Origin: Hungatella sp.
GTDB taxonomy: Bacteria > Bacillota > Clostridia > Lachnospirales > Lachnospiraceae
NCBI GenBank assembly: GCA_022792815.1
Contig: JAAWBS010000009.1
Coordinates: 1 to 64,000 of the forward strand
DNA length: 64,000 nucleotides
Direction of reading: 5' to 3'
Shown piece by piece: positions 2,285-58,898 of the stretch. The notes beneath the pieces were generated by a model. It saw nothing but the letters and a program-made list of their open reading frames with translations, was not told the origin of the DNA and ran no database searches. The stretch's first letter is position 1, and every line of letters starts with the position of its first letter. A program made the position numbers and the translations under genes.

Positions 2285-2959
2285 ATGGAACGATTAAAAG
2301 GAAAGAGGGCATTCCTGTTTGATCTGGATGGAACCCTGGTGGATTCCATGTGGATGTGGAAGAGCATTGACATCGAGTTTTTGGGAAGTTACGGCCATGA
2401 ATGTCCGCCGGAGCTTCAGAGGGCCATCGAGGGGATGAGTTTTTCCGAGACTGCCATATATTTTAAGGAGCGTTTTGGACTTCCGCTGACGACAGAGGAG
2501 ATCAAGGCGGTGTGGACTCGTATGTCCATCGACAAATACCGCCATGAGGTTCCCCCGAAGAGAGGGGCCATGGAGTTTCTGGCCTACGCCGGGGAGCAGG
2601 GGATCTTTTGCGGCATCGCCACCAGCAACGGTCGGGATATGGTGGACGCGGTTCTGGATTCTCTCGGGATGCGGCCCTTTTTTCAGGCAGTGACCACGGC
2701 CTGTGAGGTGAAGGCAGGCAAACCGGAGCCGGACATCTATCTGAAGGTGGCAAAGGATCTGGGAGTGGAGCCGGCAGAGTGCATGGTGTTTGAGGATGTG
2801 CCGGCAGGGATCCTGGCCGGAAAGAGGGCAGGGATGACCGTGTGTGCGGTGGACGATGAGTTCTCCAGAGTCATGGAGGCGGAGAAGCGGTCCATGGCCG
2901 ATTATTTTATTCGGGATTATTTTGAACTTCTGGACAGCAGGTCACAGGGCCTGATCTGA
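2285..2959 (+). CDS. HAD-superfamily phosphatase, beta-phosphoglucomutase-like
   Basis: Haloacid-dehalogenase-type hydrolase or mutase of about 224 aa. Motif I DLDGT is at residues 13-17 with the nucleophile Asp13; a helical cap follows. Motif II is the ATSNG stretch, motif III the lysine in GKPEPD, and motif IV the acidic VFEDVPAG. This order is typical of subfamily IA, which acts on small phosphorylated sugars or nucleotides. The substrate cannot be read from the sequence. It lies 62 bases after the pseudouridine synthase and 18 bases before the ygiQ-like gene, so it is probably in the same operon. Confidence 0.85.
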   Translation: MERLKGKRAFLFDLDGTLVDSMWMWKSIDIEFLGSYGHECPPELQRAIEGMSFSETAIYFKERFGLPLTTEEIKAVWTRMSIDKYRHEVPPKRGAMEFLAYAGEQGIFCGIATSNGRDMVDAVLDSLGMRPFFQAVTTACEVKAGKPEPDIYLKVAKDLGVEPAECMVFEDVPAGILAGKRAGMTVCAVDDEFSRVMEAEKRSMADYFIRDYFELLDSRSQGLI

Positions 2960-2977
2960 GGAAAGGATTGTGACGGT

Positions 2978-4975
2978 ATGAAGCCAGATTATTTGCCCAT
3001 AAGCCGGGCGGACATGAGCAGACGGGGATGGAATCAGTGTGACTTTGTGTATGTCTGCGGGGATGCCTATGTGGATCACCCGTCTTTTGGCCATGCCATT
3101 ATTTCCAGGCTGCTGGAATCCCACGGATATAAGGTGGGAATCATCGCCCAGCCGGACTGGAAGGATCAAAAGAGCATCGCCGTTCTGGGGCGGCCCAGGC
3201 TGGGATTTCTGGTTTCAGCCGGCAACATGGATTCCATGGTGAATCACTACTCGGTGTCAAAGAAGCAGAGAAGCGAGGATGCCTACACTCCGGGAGGAGT
3301 CATGGGGAGACGGCCGGACTATGCCACGGTCGTGTACTGCAATCTGATCCGCTCTGTCTATAAGGACAGCCCCATCGTCATCGGCGGGATTGAGGCCAGC
3401 CTCAGACGCCTGGCCCACTATGACTACTGGTCTGACCGGTTAAAGCGTTCTATCCTTCTGGATTCCCAGGCAGATCTGATCTCCTACGGCATGGGAGAGC
3501 GTTCCATGATAGAGATCGCCGATGCCCTGGATAGCGGCATCCACATAAAAGACATCACCTTTGTGGACGGGACCGTGTACAGGACCAAGAGTCTGGAAAC
3601 GGTGTACGACTATGAACTGCTGCCGGATTATCAGGAGCTTTTGGGGGACAGGAGAGAATATGCCAGAAGTTTTTTCACACAGTACCAGAACACGGACCCT
3701 TTTACGGGGAGACGCCTCGCAGAGCCCTACGGCGGGCAGGTGTATGTGGTTCAGAATCCTCCGGCAAAGCCTTTAAACCAGGAGGAGATGGACCGGGTCT
3801 ATGATCTGCCGTATATGAGAAACTATCACCCATCCTACGAGGACCAGGGAGGGATTCCGGCCATCCGGGAGGTCAAGTTCAGCCTGATCAGCAACCGGGG
3901 GTGTTTCGGCGCCTGCAGCTTCTGCGCCCTGACCTTTCACCAGGGAAGGATCATTCAGACCAGAAGCCATGAGTCTCTGCTTAAGGAGGCCGAGCTGTTT
4001 AAGGAGGAGCCGGATTTCAAGGGATATATCCACGATGTGGGAGGTCCCACGGCCAATTTCCGCTATCCGGCCTGCGGCAAGCAGACGACCAAGGGGGCTT
4101 GCAAAAACCGGCAGTGTCTGTTTCCGGAACCCTGTAAGAACTTAAAGGCAGACCACGGCGACTATTTGGAGCTTCTGCGGAAACTGCGGGCATTGCCCAA
4201 GGTGAAAAAGGTATTTATCCGCTCCGGCATCCGGTTTGACTATGTGCTGGCAGATCCCGGGCGGACATTTCTGCGGGAGCTCTGCGAGCACCATGTCAGC
4301 GGTCAGCTGAAGGTGGCGCCGGAGCATGTGGCAGACCCGGTGCTTAAGCGGATGGGAAAACCGGAGAACCAGGTGTACCGCCGGTTTGTGAGGGAGTACA
4401 ATGAGATGAACCAGAAGCTGGGTAAGAAGCAGTATCTGGTGCCTTATCTCATGTCCTCTCACCCGGGTTCCACCATGAAAGAGGCGGTGGAGCTGGCAGA
4501 GTATCTTCGGGATCTGGGTTACATGCCGGAACAGGTCCAGGATTTCTATCCCACTCCATCCACCATCTCCACCTGTATGTACTATACCGGCTACGACTGC
4601 CGGACCATGGAGAAGGTATATGTGCCCACCAACCCCCATGAGAAGGCTATGCAGAGAGCCCTGATCCAGTATCGGAACCCAAAGAATTATGATCTGGTGG
4701 CAGAGGCTCTGAGACTGGCAGGGAGGACGGATCTTATAGGATTTGGCAGGAAATGTCTGATACGGCCCAAGGATGGGAATCCTTATGGGAGACGGGACAA
4801 AAGGACGGGAACCGGAAGTTTTGACGGCGGGAAGGAAAGCAAAGAGCCAAGGGGAAAAGGGAGCCGGAATCTGCGGGGCGTCCAGACGGCGGAGAAAGAC
4901 CGGGGGACAGGCAGACAGGAAAAAACAGGAAAGAAGAAAAAGACGATTCGAAATGTGCATAAAAAGAAAGGCTGA
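2978..4975 (+). CDS. YgiQ-family radical SAM protein
   Basis: Large radical SAM protein of 665 aa, the usual size for YgiQ. The N-terminal YgiQ-specific region spans about 1-300. The [4Fe-4S]-binding CX3CX2C is Cys309, Cys313 and Cys316 in the RGCFGACSFC stretch, followed by a TIM-barrel core. The last 70 residues are a Lys/Arg-rich, low-complexity tail that probably binds nucleic acid. The biochemical role of the family is not firmly known. The start ATG follows GAGGAAAGG. Confidence 0.92.
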   Translation: MKPDYLPISRADMSRRGWNQCDFVYVCGDAYVDHPSFGHAIISRLLESHGYKVGIIAQPDWKDQKSIAVLGRPRLGFLVSAGNMDSMVNHYSVSKKQRSEDAYTPGGVMGRRPDYATVVYCNLIRSVYKDSPIVIGGIEASLRRLAHYDYWSDRLKRSILLDSQADLISYGMGERSMIEIADALDSGIHIKDITFVDGTVYRTKSLETVYDYELLPDYQELLGDRREYARSFFTQYQNTDPFTGRRLAEPYGGQVYVVQNPPAKPLNQEEMDRVYDLPYMRNYHPSYEDQGGIPAIREVKFSLISNRGCFGACSFCALTFHQGRIIQTRSHESLLKEAELFKEEPDFKGYIHDVGGPTANFRYPACGKQTTKGACKNRQCLFPEPCKNLKADHGDYLELLRKLRALPKVKKVFIRSGIRFDYVLADPGRTFLRELCEHHVSGQLKVAPEHVADPVLKRMGKPENQVYRRFVREYNEMNQKLGKKQYLVPYLMSSHPGSTMKEAVELAEYLRDLGYMPEQVQDFYPTPSTISTCMYYTGYDCRTMEKVYVPTNPHEKAMQRALIQYRNPKNYDLVAEALRLAGRTDLIGFGRKCLIRPKDGNPYGRRDKRTGTGSFDGGKESKEPRGKGSRNLRGVQTAEKDRGTGRQEKTGKKKKTIRNVHKKKG

Positions 4976-55566: not shown

Positions 55567-55595
55567 TTGAGATTATCAGGGGTTTATGATATAAC
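55567..55595 (+). promoter_or_regulatory. Promoter of the queuine salvage operon
   Basis: TTGAGA (55567-55572), 17 bp, TATAAC (55590-55595). Transcription would start near 55602, about 20 bases before the preQ1 aptamer, which is the expected geometry for a riboswitch leader. Confidence 0.65.
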
Positions 55596-55621
55596 TGTAT
55601 CAATGCGATTGTGAGATGCAG

Positions 55622-55657
55622 GACTGGTTCGAAAACCTCCCAGTATAAAAAACTAGG
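55622..55657 (+). promoter_or_regulatory. PreQ1-I riboswitch aptamer
   Basis: A compact class I preQ1 aptamer. P1 is ACTGG (55623-55627) with CCAGT (55640-55644). The loop contains TTCGAAAACCTCC, and the A-rich tail ATAAAAAACTAGG (55645-55657) is the hallmark of the class. CCT in the loop (55636-55638) can pair with AGG at the tail end (55655-55657) to form the pseudoknot. The aptamer binds the queuosine precursor preQ1, the product expected from the radical SAM enzyme of this operon. Confidence 0.88.
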
Positions 55658-55697
55658 CAAAAGAAACAAACACGCTGTTGATACAGGGTGCTGCTTT

Positions 55698-55742
55698 TGC
55701 TGTTCTTGAAGTGGGGAAGATCAGACGAAGGCGGCATTTTTT
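55698..55742 (+). terminator. Riboswitch expression-platform terminator
   Basis: TGCTGTTCTT (55698-55707) pairs with GAAGGCGGCA (55727-55736), using several G-U pairs, and is followed directly by six T (55737-55742). A competing hairpin, GCAAAAG (55657-55663) with CTTTTGC (55694-55700) enclosing CACGCTGT/ACAGGGTG, shares its 3' arm with the terminator and its first G with the aptamer pseudoknot. This suggests an OFF switch by termination. Folding was done by eye. Confidence 0.6.
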
Positions 55743-55796
55743 GTTTGAATTGCCTTTTCTGATGGTTGATAAAAAGAAAAGGAGCAGAGAATACTC

Positions 55797-56783
55797 ATGA
55801 AACGAAACGTAATCATTGACTGTGACCCGGGCATCGACGACAGCCTGGCGCTAATGCTGGCGCTTTCCATGGAAGAGCTCAACGTGGTCGGCATCACCGT
55901 CGTCTGCGGCAACAGCCCGGTCCACATGGGAACCGGGAACACCGGAAAAATACTTCGGTTTATGAACCGGCTGGATGTGCCCGTGTTTGCGGGGGCCGAA
56001 GCGCCCCTTAAGAGAGAGTTTGCGGATGCCCTGGACACCCACGGGCGGGACGGTCTGGGGGAAAGCTTTCTGCCGGAGGCAGAAGGGTTTTGTCCCAAGA
56101 CGGGAGCAGTGGATTTTCTGGCAAAGACCCTCAGGGAAAAGCCCTGTTCTGTCATTGCCCTGGGACCATTGACCAACCTGGCCCTCCTGTATGAGCAGGA
56201 TCAGGAGGCTTTCGGGCAGATGGAAGAGCTTGTGTCCATGGGCGGAAATTTCCGAAGCCACGGCAATTGTTCTCCTGTGGCAGAATATAATTATTGGGCA
56301 GACCCCGACGGAGCGGCCAAGGTATACCAAGCCATGGAAGAGATCGGAAAGAAGATCACCATGGTGGGCCTTGACGTGACGCGGGAGATCGTGCTGACAC
56401 CGGATCTGTTGGCGTATCTGAGACGGCTGAACCCGGAGGTGGGCGGGTTTGTGGAGAAGATCACGAAGTTTTATTTCGATTTTCACTGGAGACAGGAACA
56501 CCTCATCGGATGTGTCATCAATGACCCTCTGGCCGTGGCCTATTTTGCGGACCGAAGCCTGTGCGACGGCTTTGATGCCTATACTCAGGTGGCGACAGAC
56601 GGCCTAAGCACAGGACAGACGGTGGTGGATTCCATGGGATTTTACGGAAAAAGGGCCAACAGCCTGGTGCTGACCAGGACAGACCCGGTCCGTTTTTTCA
56701 CCATGTTCTTCGGCCGGATCCTTGGGACAGATGAGAAGAGTCTGGACCTGATTCCCCGTCTTGTAAGGAGGGAGACCCTATGA
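55797..56783 (+). CDS. queK: Nucleoside hydrolase, probable queuosine nucleosidase
   Basis: IU-type nucleoside hydrolase of 328 aa. The calcium-binding motif IDCDPGIDDSLALMLAL occupies residues 7-23, and the ligand stretch INDPLAVAYF is near 241. In clostridial queuine salvage a dedicated nucleosidase of this fold releases queuine from queuosine. The assignment rests on its operon with an ECF S component and a radical SAM protein under a preQ1 riboswitch; the fold alone would also allow uridine or inosine hydrolysis. The ATG follows AAAAGGAG; the stop overlaps the next start by four bases. Confidence 0.85.
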   Translation: MKRNVIIDCDPGIDDSLALMLALSMEELNVVGITVVCGNSPVHMGTGNTGKILRFMNRLDVPVFAGAEAPLKREFADALDTHGRDGLGESFLPEAEGFCPKTGAVDFLAKTLREKPCSVIALGPLTNLALLYEQDQEAFGQMEELVSMGGNFRSHGNCSPVAEYNYWADPDGAAKVYQAMEEIGKKITMVGLDVTREIVLTPDLLAYLRRLNPEVGGFVEKITKFYFDFHWRQEHLIGCVINDPLAVAYFADRSLCDGFDAYTQVATDGLSTGQTVVDSMGFYGKRANSLVLTRTDPVRFFTMFFGRILGTDEKSLDLIPRLVRRETL

Positions 56784-57367
56784 AAAGACAGAAGATGACT
56801 CCTCTTTCCCTGTGCCTGGTGGCCATGGCAGTGGGAATCAATGTGGCAGGGGGACAACTGGCCCTTCTCTTTAAGCTTCCCATCTATCTGGACAGCATCG
56901 GCACCATCCTGACAGGCGCTTTGTTTGGCCCGTGGTTTGGTATGATTCCCAATCTCTTAAGCGGAATCATCCTGGGAATTACCACGGATCTCTATTCCCT
57001 GTACTTTGCGCCGGTGGGTATGATAACCGGATTTATGTCAGGTCTGGTGTGGAAGAGATGGCTGTCCGGAAGGGGCATTACCGCCTTGAAGGGCAGACTC
57101 TGGCTGTGGGCTCTGGCGGTATCCCTGCCGGGAACTCTGATCAGTTCTCTGATCTGCTCTTTGGTGTTCGGGGGGATCACCTCATCCGGCTCCACCATCC
57201 TGGTACAGCTTTTGGCTAAGACGCCTCTCGGCATGACCGCCAGCATCTTTTTGGTGCAGATCGGGACGGATTATCTTGACAGGGTAATCAGTATGCTGGC
57301 AGTGGCATATGCCCTCGAGAAGCTGCCGGCAGAGCTGAAAGCAAGGCTCTGCAGAAAGGAAGGTTGA
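56780..57367 (+). CDS. ECF transporter S component, probable queuine/queuosine transporter
   Basis: Substrate-binding membrane subunit of an energy-coupling-factor importer, 195 aa with five or six hydrophobic segments. PIYLDSIGTILTGALFGPWFG is a typical S-component stretch. S components use a shared EcfA/A'/T module encoded elsewhere. Its ATGA overlap with the nucleosidase gene and the downstream radical SAM gene point to queuine or queuosine as substrate. Confidence 0.85.
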   Translation: MKRQKMTPLSLCLVAMAVGINVAGGQLALLFKLPIYLDSIGTILTGALFGPWFGMIPNLLSGIILGITTDLYSLYFAPVGMITGFMSGLVWKRWLSGRGITALKGRLWLWALAVSLPGTLISSLICSLVFGGITSSGSTILVQLLAKTPLGMTASIFLVQIGTDYLDRVISMLAVAYALEKLPAELKARLCRKEG

Positions 57368-57369
57368 GT

Positions 57370-58068
57370 ATGGGAGTTCCCGATGAGCGCTACAGCCAAA
57401 TCACAGAGAAAAACCCCAGGGAGATCTGTCTGCTGCGGGGATTCCCCTGTAAGTGGGGAAAATGTGCATTCTGCGATTATATCGACGACAACGGCAGGGA
57501 TGAGAAGGCCATGATCGAATTAAACCGCCGGGTGCTCTCCCGGGTGACCGGCAAGCTTAAAGTCCTGGAAGTGATCAATTCCGGAAGCTGTTTCGAGCTG
57601 CCGGAAGGGACGCTGGAGGACATCTGCCGGGTGATCAGGGACAGACACATCGAAAAACTGTTTTTGGAGTCCCACTGGATGTATCGGAATCACCTTGCCT
57701 CCATGCGGGAGAGAATGCCGGTTCCCGTCGTCTTTAAGATCGGAGTGGAAACCTTTGACCGGGACTTTCGGGAGAATGTCCTGAATAAACATGCAGACTT
57801 TCGCGGCCCCGAGGAGGTGGCAGAGTACTTTGACTCCCCCTGCCTTATGGTCGGGATCAGAGGACAGACAAAAGAGATGATCGCCCATGATATCCGATGT
57901 CTGAAACAATACTTTTCTCTGGGCACCGTCAATGTGTACAACGACAATACCACGGCGGTAAAACGGGACGAAGAGCTGGTGAGCTGGTTTATGAGAGAGT
58001 ATCGCTGGCTTTTGGACGATCCGTCGGTGGAGGTGCTGTATGAGATTACGGATTTCGGAGTGGGCTGA
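57370..58068 (+). CDS. queL: Radical SAM queuine lyase-like protein
   Basis: A 232-aa radical SAM protein. The cluster cysteines are Cys27, Cys32 and Cys35 (CKWGKCAFC), spaced CX4CX2C instead of the canonical CX3CX2C. In gut Clostridia a radical SAM subgroup converts queuine to preQ1, and its gene sits with a nucleosidase and an ECF transporter exactly as here. I start at ATG 57370, seven bases after AAAGGAAGG; a TTG at 57364 overlaps the preceding stop. The preQ1 aptamer at the operon head senses the expected product. Confidence 0.85.
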   Translation: MGVPDERYSQITEKNPREICLLRGFPCKWGKCAFCDYIDDNGRDEKAMIELNRRVLSRVTGKLKVLEVINSGSCFELPEGTLEDICRVIRDRHIEKLFLESHWMYRNHLASMRERMPVPVVFKIGVETFDRDFRENVLNKHADFRGPEEVAEYFDSPCLMVGIRGQTKEMIAHDIRCLKQYFSLGTVNVYNDNTTAVKRDEELVSWFMREYRWLLDDPSVEVLYEITDFGVG

Positions 58069-58127: not shown

Positions 58128-58898
58128 ATGGAAACCATAAAAGTGAGAAATCTGGTCATCGGGGAGGGCAGACCCAAGATCTGTGTGCCCATTGTGGGAA
58201 AGAGCCGGGAGGAGATCCTGTGTGCTGCCGGGAATTTGACTGAAACAGAGGCAGAGCTGGCGGAGTGGAGGGCGGACTGGTATGAGGAAGTCTCCGACTT
58301 TTCCAAGGTTTTAGATACCGCAGGAGCGCTCCGGGACATCTTAGGAGACCTGCCGTTTCTCTTCACCTTCCGCACCACCAAAGAGGGCGGAGAAAAGTCT
58401 CTGGAGGCGGAGGAATACATAGAGTTGAACCGGGCTGTCATAGAAAGCGGGTATATCGACCTGGTGGACGTGGAACTGTTTACAGGAGATGAGGCCGTGG
58501 CGGCTCTGGCGGAATGTGCCCATGCCTGTCAGGTGAAAGTGATCGTCTCCAGCCATGATTTCAGAAAGACGCCGTCGCGGGAGACCATCCTTGGACGGAT
58601 GAAGAGGATGCTGGAGCTGGGGGCGGATATCCCCAAGATCGCGGTGATGCCTCAGCTCAAGGAGGATGTGCTCTCCCTGCTGGCGGCTACCCTCGAGATG
58701 AGCGAGCATTATGCCAAAGGTCCCGTCATCACCATGTCCATGTCCGGAGCCGGAGTGGTCAGCCGGCTGGCCGGAGAGACTTTCGGCTCCGCAGTGACCT
58801 ACGGAGCCGTGGGCAAACAGTCCGCTCCGGGCCAAGTGGATGCAACCAGCCTTAAAAAAGTGCTGGATGTGATCCACGAGAGCCTGCAAAACGGATAA
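58128..58898 (+). CDS. aroD: 3-dehydroquinate dehydratase, type I
   Basis: Shikimate-pathway enzyme that dehydrates 3-dehydroquinate through a Schiff base. The protein has 256 aa. The fold starts with KICVPIVG; EWRADWYE, the catalytic His in VSSHDF, and the Schiff-base Lys in PKIAVMP are all present. I start at ATG 58128, with AAAAGGGGAAG before it. It lies 59 bases after queL and may be cotranscribed. Its stop is only three bases from the end of the convergent gene. Confidence 0.93.
   Translation: METIKVRNLVIGEGRPKICVPIVGKSREEILCAAGNLTETEAELAEWRADWYEEVSDFSKVLDTAGALRDILGDLPFLFTFRTTKEGGEKSLEAEEYIELNRAVIESGYIDLVDVELFTGDEAVAALAECAHACQVKVIVSSHDFRKTPSRETILGRMKRMLELGADIPKIAVMPQLKEDVLSLLAATLEMSEHYAKGPVITMSMSGAGVVSRLAGETFGSAVTYGAVGKQSAPGQVDATSLKKVLDVIHESLQNG

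Follow-up and report, generated by a model that had tools for sequence, protein, structure and literature searches.

A predicted queK-qrtT-queL salvage operon of the C. difficile type behind a preQ1-I riboswitch, very probably of the terminating kind, in a lineage close to Hungatella

The window analysed here, a stretch of 64,000 nucleotides from Hungatella sp. (contig JAAWBS010000009.1), carries three consecutive genes on the forward strand behind a structured leader. The first encodes a member of the IU_nuc_hydro family, by prediction a queK-like queuosine nucleosidase (55797..56783; PF01156, 1.1e-84), the second a qrtT-like S component of an ECF transporter (56780..57367), and the third a radical SAM protein with a CX4CX2C motif that belongs to the queuine lyase family, QueL (57370..58068). 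Upstream, and on the same strand, lie a sigma-70-type promoter-like site (55567..55595), a preQ1-I aptamer (55618..55662) and the stem-loop of an intrinsic terminator (55688..55737; -23.1 kcal/mol) with a T run from 55738. An earlier note on this DNA had listed a promoter, an aptamer and three genes in this order; its coordinates are correct, and all of these elements are seen at the locus, the promoter with the reservation given below. It had also joined the genes by ATGA and TTGA overlaps. The ATGA overlap between the hydrolase and S component genes is indeed there, while a TTGA overlap between the S component gene and queL is doubtful: the ribosome-binding sequence AAGGAAGG (57356-57363) ends directly before the TTG at 57364 and 6 bases before the ATG at 57370, and because the latter spacing is the better fit we take queL to begin at 57370.

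The promoter-like site, TTGAGA-17-TATAAC, agrees with the consensus at 10 of 12 positions and ends 22 bases upstream of the aptamer; shuffling the 75 bases before the aptamer base by base gave a site as good in 1.6% of 2000 cases. A consensus promoter scan does not list it, since that scan demands a T at the last -10 position. Conservation of the promoter among relatives was considered and found to be weak: sites with at least 10 matches occur in only 7 of the 68 loci tested, the window included (1.5% in shuffles), and we therefore regard the site as a plausible promoter rather than a proven one. With 55.8 bits against a gathering score of 39 (RF00522, E 1.2e-8), and matched over its full length (1-45 of 45), the aptamer is the sole Rfam match at gathering score in the window, so that 55618-55662 is a preQ1-I riboswitch by covariance score, and its binding of preQ1 is predicted.

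Among solved structures, the only significant match of the radical SAM protein is the queuine lyase 6p78 (3.3e-77, residues 6-232 of 232), the two further rows standing at E 0.26. The two proteins share the CX4CX2C spacing, and C27, C32 and C35 are invariant in 20 aligned sequences. The near full-length match places the third gene product in the QueL family as another member, for which queuine lyase activity is predicted; that activity belongs to 6p78, and the likeness of the window protein to it is one of sequence. A pattern search for QueL in viral contigs gave no match.

QueL was found in 44 of the 295 genomes of the order, and 41 neighbourhoods (40 plus that of the window) were viewed, with G176, G232 and G287 excluded; the queL match in G176 (C299:10417-11097) contains many internal stop codons and is apparently decayed or misread. 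A hydrolase and an S component lie beside queL in seven of the 41. Of the other 34 neighbourhoods, 29 have near queL a protein of one cluster, whose single tested member passes the cut-off of TIGR00697, as a QPTR-type transporter. A QueT-type cluster, of which two members were tested, is represented in three, and L071 has both. Of the six related full operons, five have a match to the Rfam preQ1-I model, and L036 is truncated by a contig end; at gathering score, none of the 34 neighbourhoods without the full operon has one. Weak matches stand just upstream of queL in L041 and L062, and C. celatum (L146) comes to 38.9 bits against the 39 of the gathering score.

Among the named loci, which are the best 80 of at least 537 (C. 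difficile's own loci fall outside these 80), all three genes occur together in 69, and the full aptamer accompanies them in 65 of the 69. The four three-gene loci without it (L085, L125, L128 and L143) have their first gene no more than about 100 bases from the end of a contig, and L143 retains a partial aptamer match that is cut off. In five of the 80, an S component and queL are present with no hydrolase in the retrieved stretch (L104 lies at a contig end); the aptamer accompanies four of these five. Six others, of which L081 and L142 lie at contig ends, have only queL of the three genes, and only weak aptamer matches were seen among them, in L146 and L152. In L082, hydrolase and S component are separated by a minus-strand open frame (about 2812-4315) of some 400 residues, which by eye resembles an IS110-like transposase.

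The hydrolase family PF01156 includes RihA and RihC, whose models match the window protein at about 1e-58 to 1e-59, and this raises the question of whether the hydrolase might be a general pyrimidine/purine nucleosidase, with an S component importing some other purine-like compound and QueL alone taking part in queuosine metabolism. The RihA and RihC scores are only about half of their cut-offs. Further, in a rapidly built tree of 37 proteins (34 of the 66 operon rows, namely that of the window and alternate ones of the rest, plus three others; L075, L085, L087 and L138 are absent through trimming), the window hydrolase falls among the hydrolases of the same operon, which are separated by long branches from E. 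coli RihA and RihC. The hydrolase of L047, which lies outside such an operon, near queL on the opposite strand, sits on a very long branch, its place in the tree uncertain. D8, D10, D14 and D15, presumably the catalytic Asp cluster of nucleoside hydrolases, are invariant in eight aligned sequences.

The S component has no Pfam match of its own and reaches 89.7 bits with NF045596 (ECF_S_CD3073), under the cut-off of 180, and it is for this reason called QrtT-like here. A general nucleosidase paired with another importer could draw on this shortfall too; NF045596 is, however, named for CD3073, which is different from the operon's own S component, and the S components of the relatives L033 and L037 fail it as well (84.5 and 88.3 bits), that of L033 narrowly passing PF12822 (32.5 against 30.7 bits). 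In a structure model of the window protein (25 sequences, pLDDT 87.8), the 12 best PDB matches are all ECF transporter entries, among them RibU, ThiT, PanT and a biotin S component (probability 0.75-1.00, TM 0.46-0.61 by query length); the modelled fold is that of an ECF S component, although the E-values of these matches are only 0.06-0.96. Given that the three-gene order and the preQ1 aptamer go together in nearly all complete operons, a general nucleosidase with an importer for some other purine-like compound seems to us very improbable. We thus retain the reading of a QueK-like hydrolase, an assignment made on family and operon context, with queuosine cleavage as its predicted activity.

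The terminator is an addition to the earlier note, which had named the aptamer and the genes without an output device. Its strength was reached by none of 100 dinucleotide shuffles of the window leader; a simple terminator scan, whose loop limit is 8, missed it. That the minimum-energy fold of 55601-55745 contains it already without ligand is a point against the proposed switch. Terminators of -17 kcal/mol or below are present in all 17 near loci (the window, the aptamer-bearing loci among L073-L089, and L092, with L091, higher ranked and lacking a terminator, excluded) as against 4 of 170 shuffles, real and shuffled stretches being of equal length. This comparison supersedes an initial control (16 of 16 against 7 of 192) in which the group had been chosen post hoc and the shuffled stretch was shorter than the one searched. 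Taking all leaders together, 23 of 70 have such a terminator against 12 of 700 shuffles, the survey covering 70 of the 74 aptamer matches (omitted are the cut-off one in L143, two weak ones in L146 and one in L152). The remaining 47 leaders lack a terminator of that strength, so other riboswitch outputs exist.

The eight bases at the 3' end of the aptamer, GGCAAAAG (55656..55663), can pair with CUUUUGCU at 55694-55701, in the 5' arm of the terminator, and are proposed to be the 5' half of an anti-terminator; the first of these bases are also, we assume, part of pseudoknot P2. Aptamer tails vary among loci, and they pair with the arm of their own terminator at a mean of -8.5 kcal/mol as against -6.7 kcal/mol with the arms of other loci. 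When tails and arms were swapped, none of 5000 permutations did as well (16 loci, and likewise with the 14 distinct tails), and when the tail was taken as the last 8-14 bases, between 0 and 6 of 5000 did. In L075, L080 and L092, the locus's own arm pairs no better than those of others. An anti-terminator with a wide tail of 35 bases was unsupported (p 0.9), and the short-tail test was chosen after that negative result, which makes its evidence good and non-independent. The aptamer tail probably forms an anti-terminator with the 5' arm of the terminator, a pairing consistent with the transcriptional preQ1-I mechanism as portions of PMC11625349 describe it.

A different output is suggested by 17 of the 70 leaders (L091, L093, L099, L102, L106, L108, L109, L119, L120, L124, L126, L129, L131, L132, L134, L135 and L137), in which a conserved ATCTC beside the aptamer is combined with a GGAGATTGGAGAATG start region. 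There, ATCTC might pair with GAGAT and hide the ribosome site, in a switch whose direction is not obvious, and 16 of these 17 leaders have no terminator-like hairpin stronger than -9 kcal/mol, the one in L131 lying past the start codon. As translational preQ1-I switches are also described in parts of the literature, one might suppose that the riboswitch of the window controls translation instead of termination, or that its terminator is mere decoration. In the window, however, the ribosome-binding sequence is about 118 bases past the aptamer, with a -23 kcal/mol hairpin and its T run in between, and we give this possibility very little credence; control by termination is the reading that we keep for the window. 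A further 13 of the 70 leaders (L100, L101, L115, L118, L133, L138, L139, L140, L145 and L148-L151) carry CTAAGG where the aptamer ends, CCTTAG further downstream and, within 45 bases, a T run, an arrangement resembling an anti-terminator pair.

Close behind queL, on the same strand, lies aroD, encoding a type I 3-dehydroquinate dehydratase (58128-58898). If read-through were to extend the operon to this gene, preQ1 would also control a step of the shikimate pathway, and aroD is indeed found on the strand of queL, no more than about 160 bases behind it, in the window as in L073, L077, L081, L082 and L084. No close aroD is seen, however, in the other 75 of the 80 named loci: 74 have no match in the retrieved stretch (some of which end soon after queL), and in L076 the gene is 2.5 kb away. 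Retention of a neighbour in close kin is expected anyway, and we know of no pathway link between aroD and queuosine; membership of aroD in the operon is accordingly unlikely. For aroD, the upstream peptidase and the upstream amino-acid transporter alike, no functional tie to queuosine was found.

The earlier note had seen no de novo genes in the window and proposed that the organism may live on salvage, a suggestion that the genome bears out as far as it is available (3.8 Mb in 73 contigs, 89% complete, which leaves single absences uncertain). The genes tgt, queA and queH are all present, queH on the same contig as the window. Neither queD nor queF had a match in any of 19 genomes searched, that of the window included, and queC was above its cut-off in none of the 19; weak partial queC matches far below the cut-off, in frames of 263-534 residues, occur in 17 of them, and we take these to be other PP-loop proteins. 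Because tgt, queA and queH are there while queD, queF and an above-threshold queC are not, the organism most likely depends on salvage. According to excerpts of PMC11130926, most species of the large intestine lack queDECF and have QueKL and transporters instead.

Within the genus, 26 genomes (G000-G012 and G307-G319) divide into ten with QueL, 13 with QueT and three with neither, and queL and queT occur together in none of the 26. QPTR is above cut-off in one (G011, which bears QueT) and weakly matched in one more. Nine of the 26, all with QueL, have a match to the aptamer model, and the tenth QueL genome (G009) has queL at a contig end; at most 150 candidates were scored in each genome, so that misses in this search are soft. 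In a queH tree of 24 genomes (G005 gave no match and G316 only pieces), the queL and queT groups are parted by one deep branch of moderate support (86/88), the three genomes without either gene being scattered. A Fisher test of queL against queT (p 1e-4) is not taken as a sign of repeated exclusion because the queH tree has a single deep split; the division looks like one exchange. The queT leaders of L153 and L154, on the sister branch, have a preQ1-I-like element running into the ribosome-binding sequence, which in L154 scores 30.9 bits, under gathering, and in L153 was recognised by eye where the scan listed nothing. The genus may have swapped preQ1 routes near its base, between queK-qrtT-queL salvage under a termination switch and queT uptake with an aptamer overlapping the ribosome-binding sequence, and across Clostridia a single aptamer in front of the same salvage operon may be combined with no fewer than three kinds of output: long terminators, CTAAGG/CCTTAG terminators, and the ATCTC/GAGAT form close by the start codon, with its unobvious direction. 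For this combined proposal we would put the chances at about even.

Our main reading, which we hold at a probability of roughly 0.92, is that the locus serves salvage of queuosine and queuine through a queK-qrtT-queL operon like that of C. difficile, controlled by a transcription-terminating preQ1-I riboswitch. The S component, with the shared ECF core, would import queuosine and/or queuine; QueK would split queuosine into queuine and ribose, and QueL would convert queuine to preQ1, which Tgt would insert in tRNA for QueA and QueH to complete to queuosine. At low preQ1, the aptamer tail would pair with the terminator's 5' arm, leaving the operon to be read; at high preQ1, the pseudoknot would be locked and the tail occupied, so that the terminator could form and the operon would be off. 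The aptamer score, the match to 6p78 and the presence of tgt and queA speak for the salvage operon under preQ1-I that the earlier note had proposed. With this locus, an uncultured lineage close to Hungatella joins the bacteria that seemingly live on the queuosine precursors of others. Salvage genes and preQ1 sensor are closely linked (65 of 69 complete operons), and the queL/queT split in one genus, together with differing outputs before one operon, offers modest and testable points on the exchange of precursor routes.

The primary report on salvage of the queK-qrtT-queL type is that of Yuan et al. in PNAS in 2019. In C. difficile, according to passages of PMC11477304, a preQ1-I riboswitch precedes a three-gene operon of QueK, QrtT and QueL (given as CD1682, 84), which encodes a queuosine hydrolase, a transporter component that handles preQ1, queuosine and queuine, and a lyase that yields preQ1. 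The same three protein families are found in the window in the same order behind the same riboswitch class, and the organism of the window, like C. difficile, probably lacks preQ1 synthesis of its own; the genus differs, and the likeness of proteins and leader is to the published description rather than by sequence. The breadth of preQ1, queuine and queuosine likewise belongs, in those passages, to the C. difficile QrtT, to which the window S component is likened by family and context. The closed feedback loop that the earlier note had drawn attention to is present as an arrangement, and it is hardly a novelty, having been published for C. difficile (PMC11477304, in part). The operon type is thus already published, and the locus, in a gut-type clostridial genome, is a well-supported further example of it, not a new system. 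Its switch resembles the transcriptional preQ1-I riboswitch of B. subtilis, in which, as set out in portions of PMC11625349, pseudoknot and ligand lead to a terminator and an anti-terminator forms without ligand; that switch controls queCDEF whereas the one in the window precedes salvage genes, and the hairpins are likened by description. Uptake of preQ1 or preQ0 through queT or QPTR (yhhQ) provides Tgt with the same end product, and queT of the sister branch (L153, L154) likewise has a preQ1-I-like leader, but this route uses other transporter families and needs neither hydrolase nor lyase.
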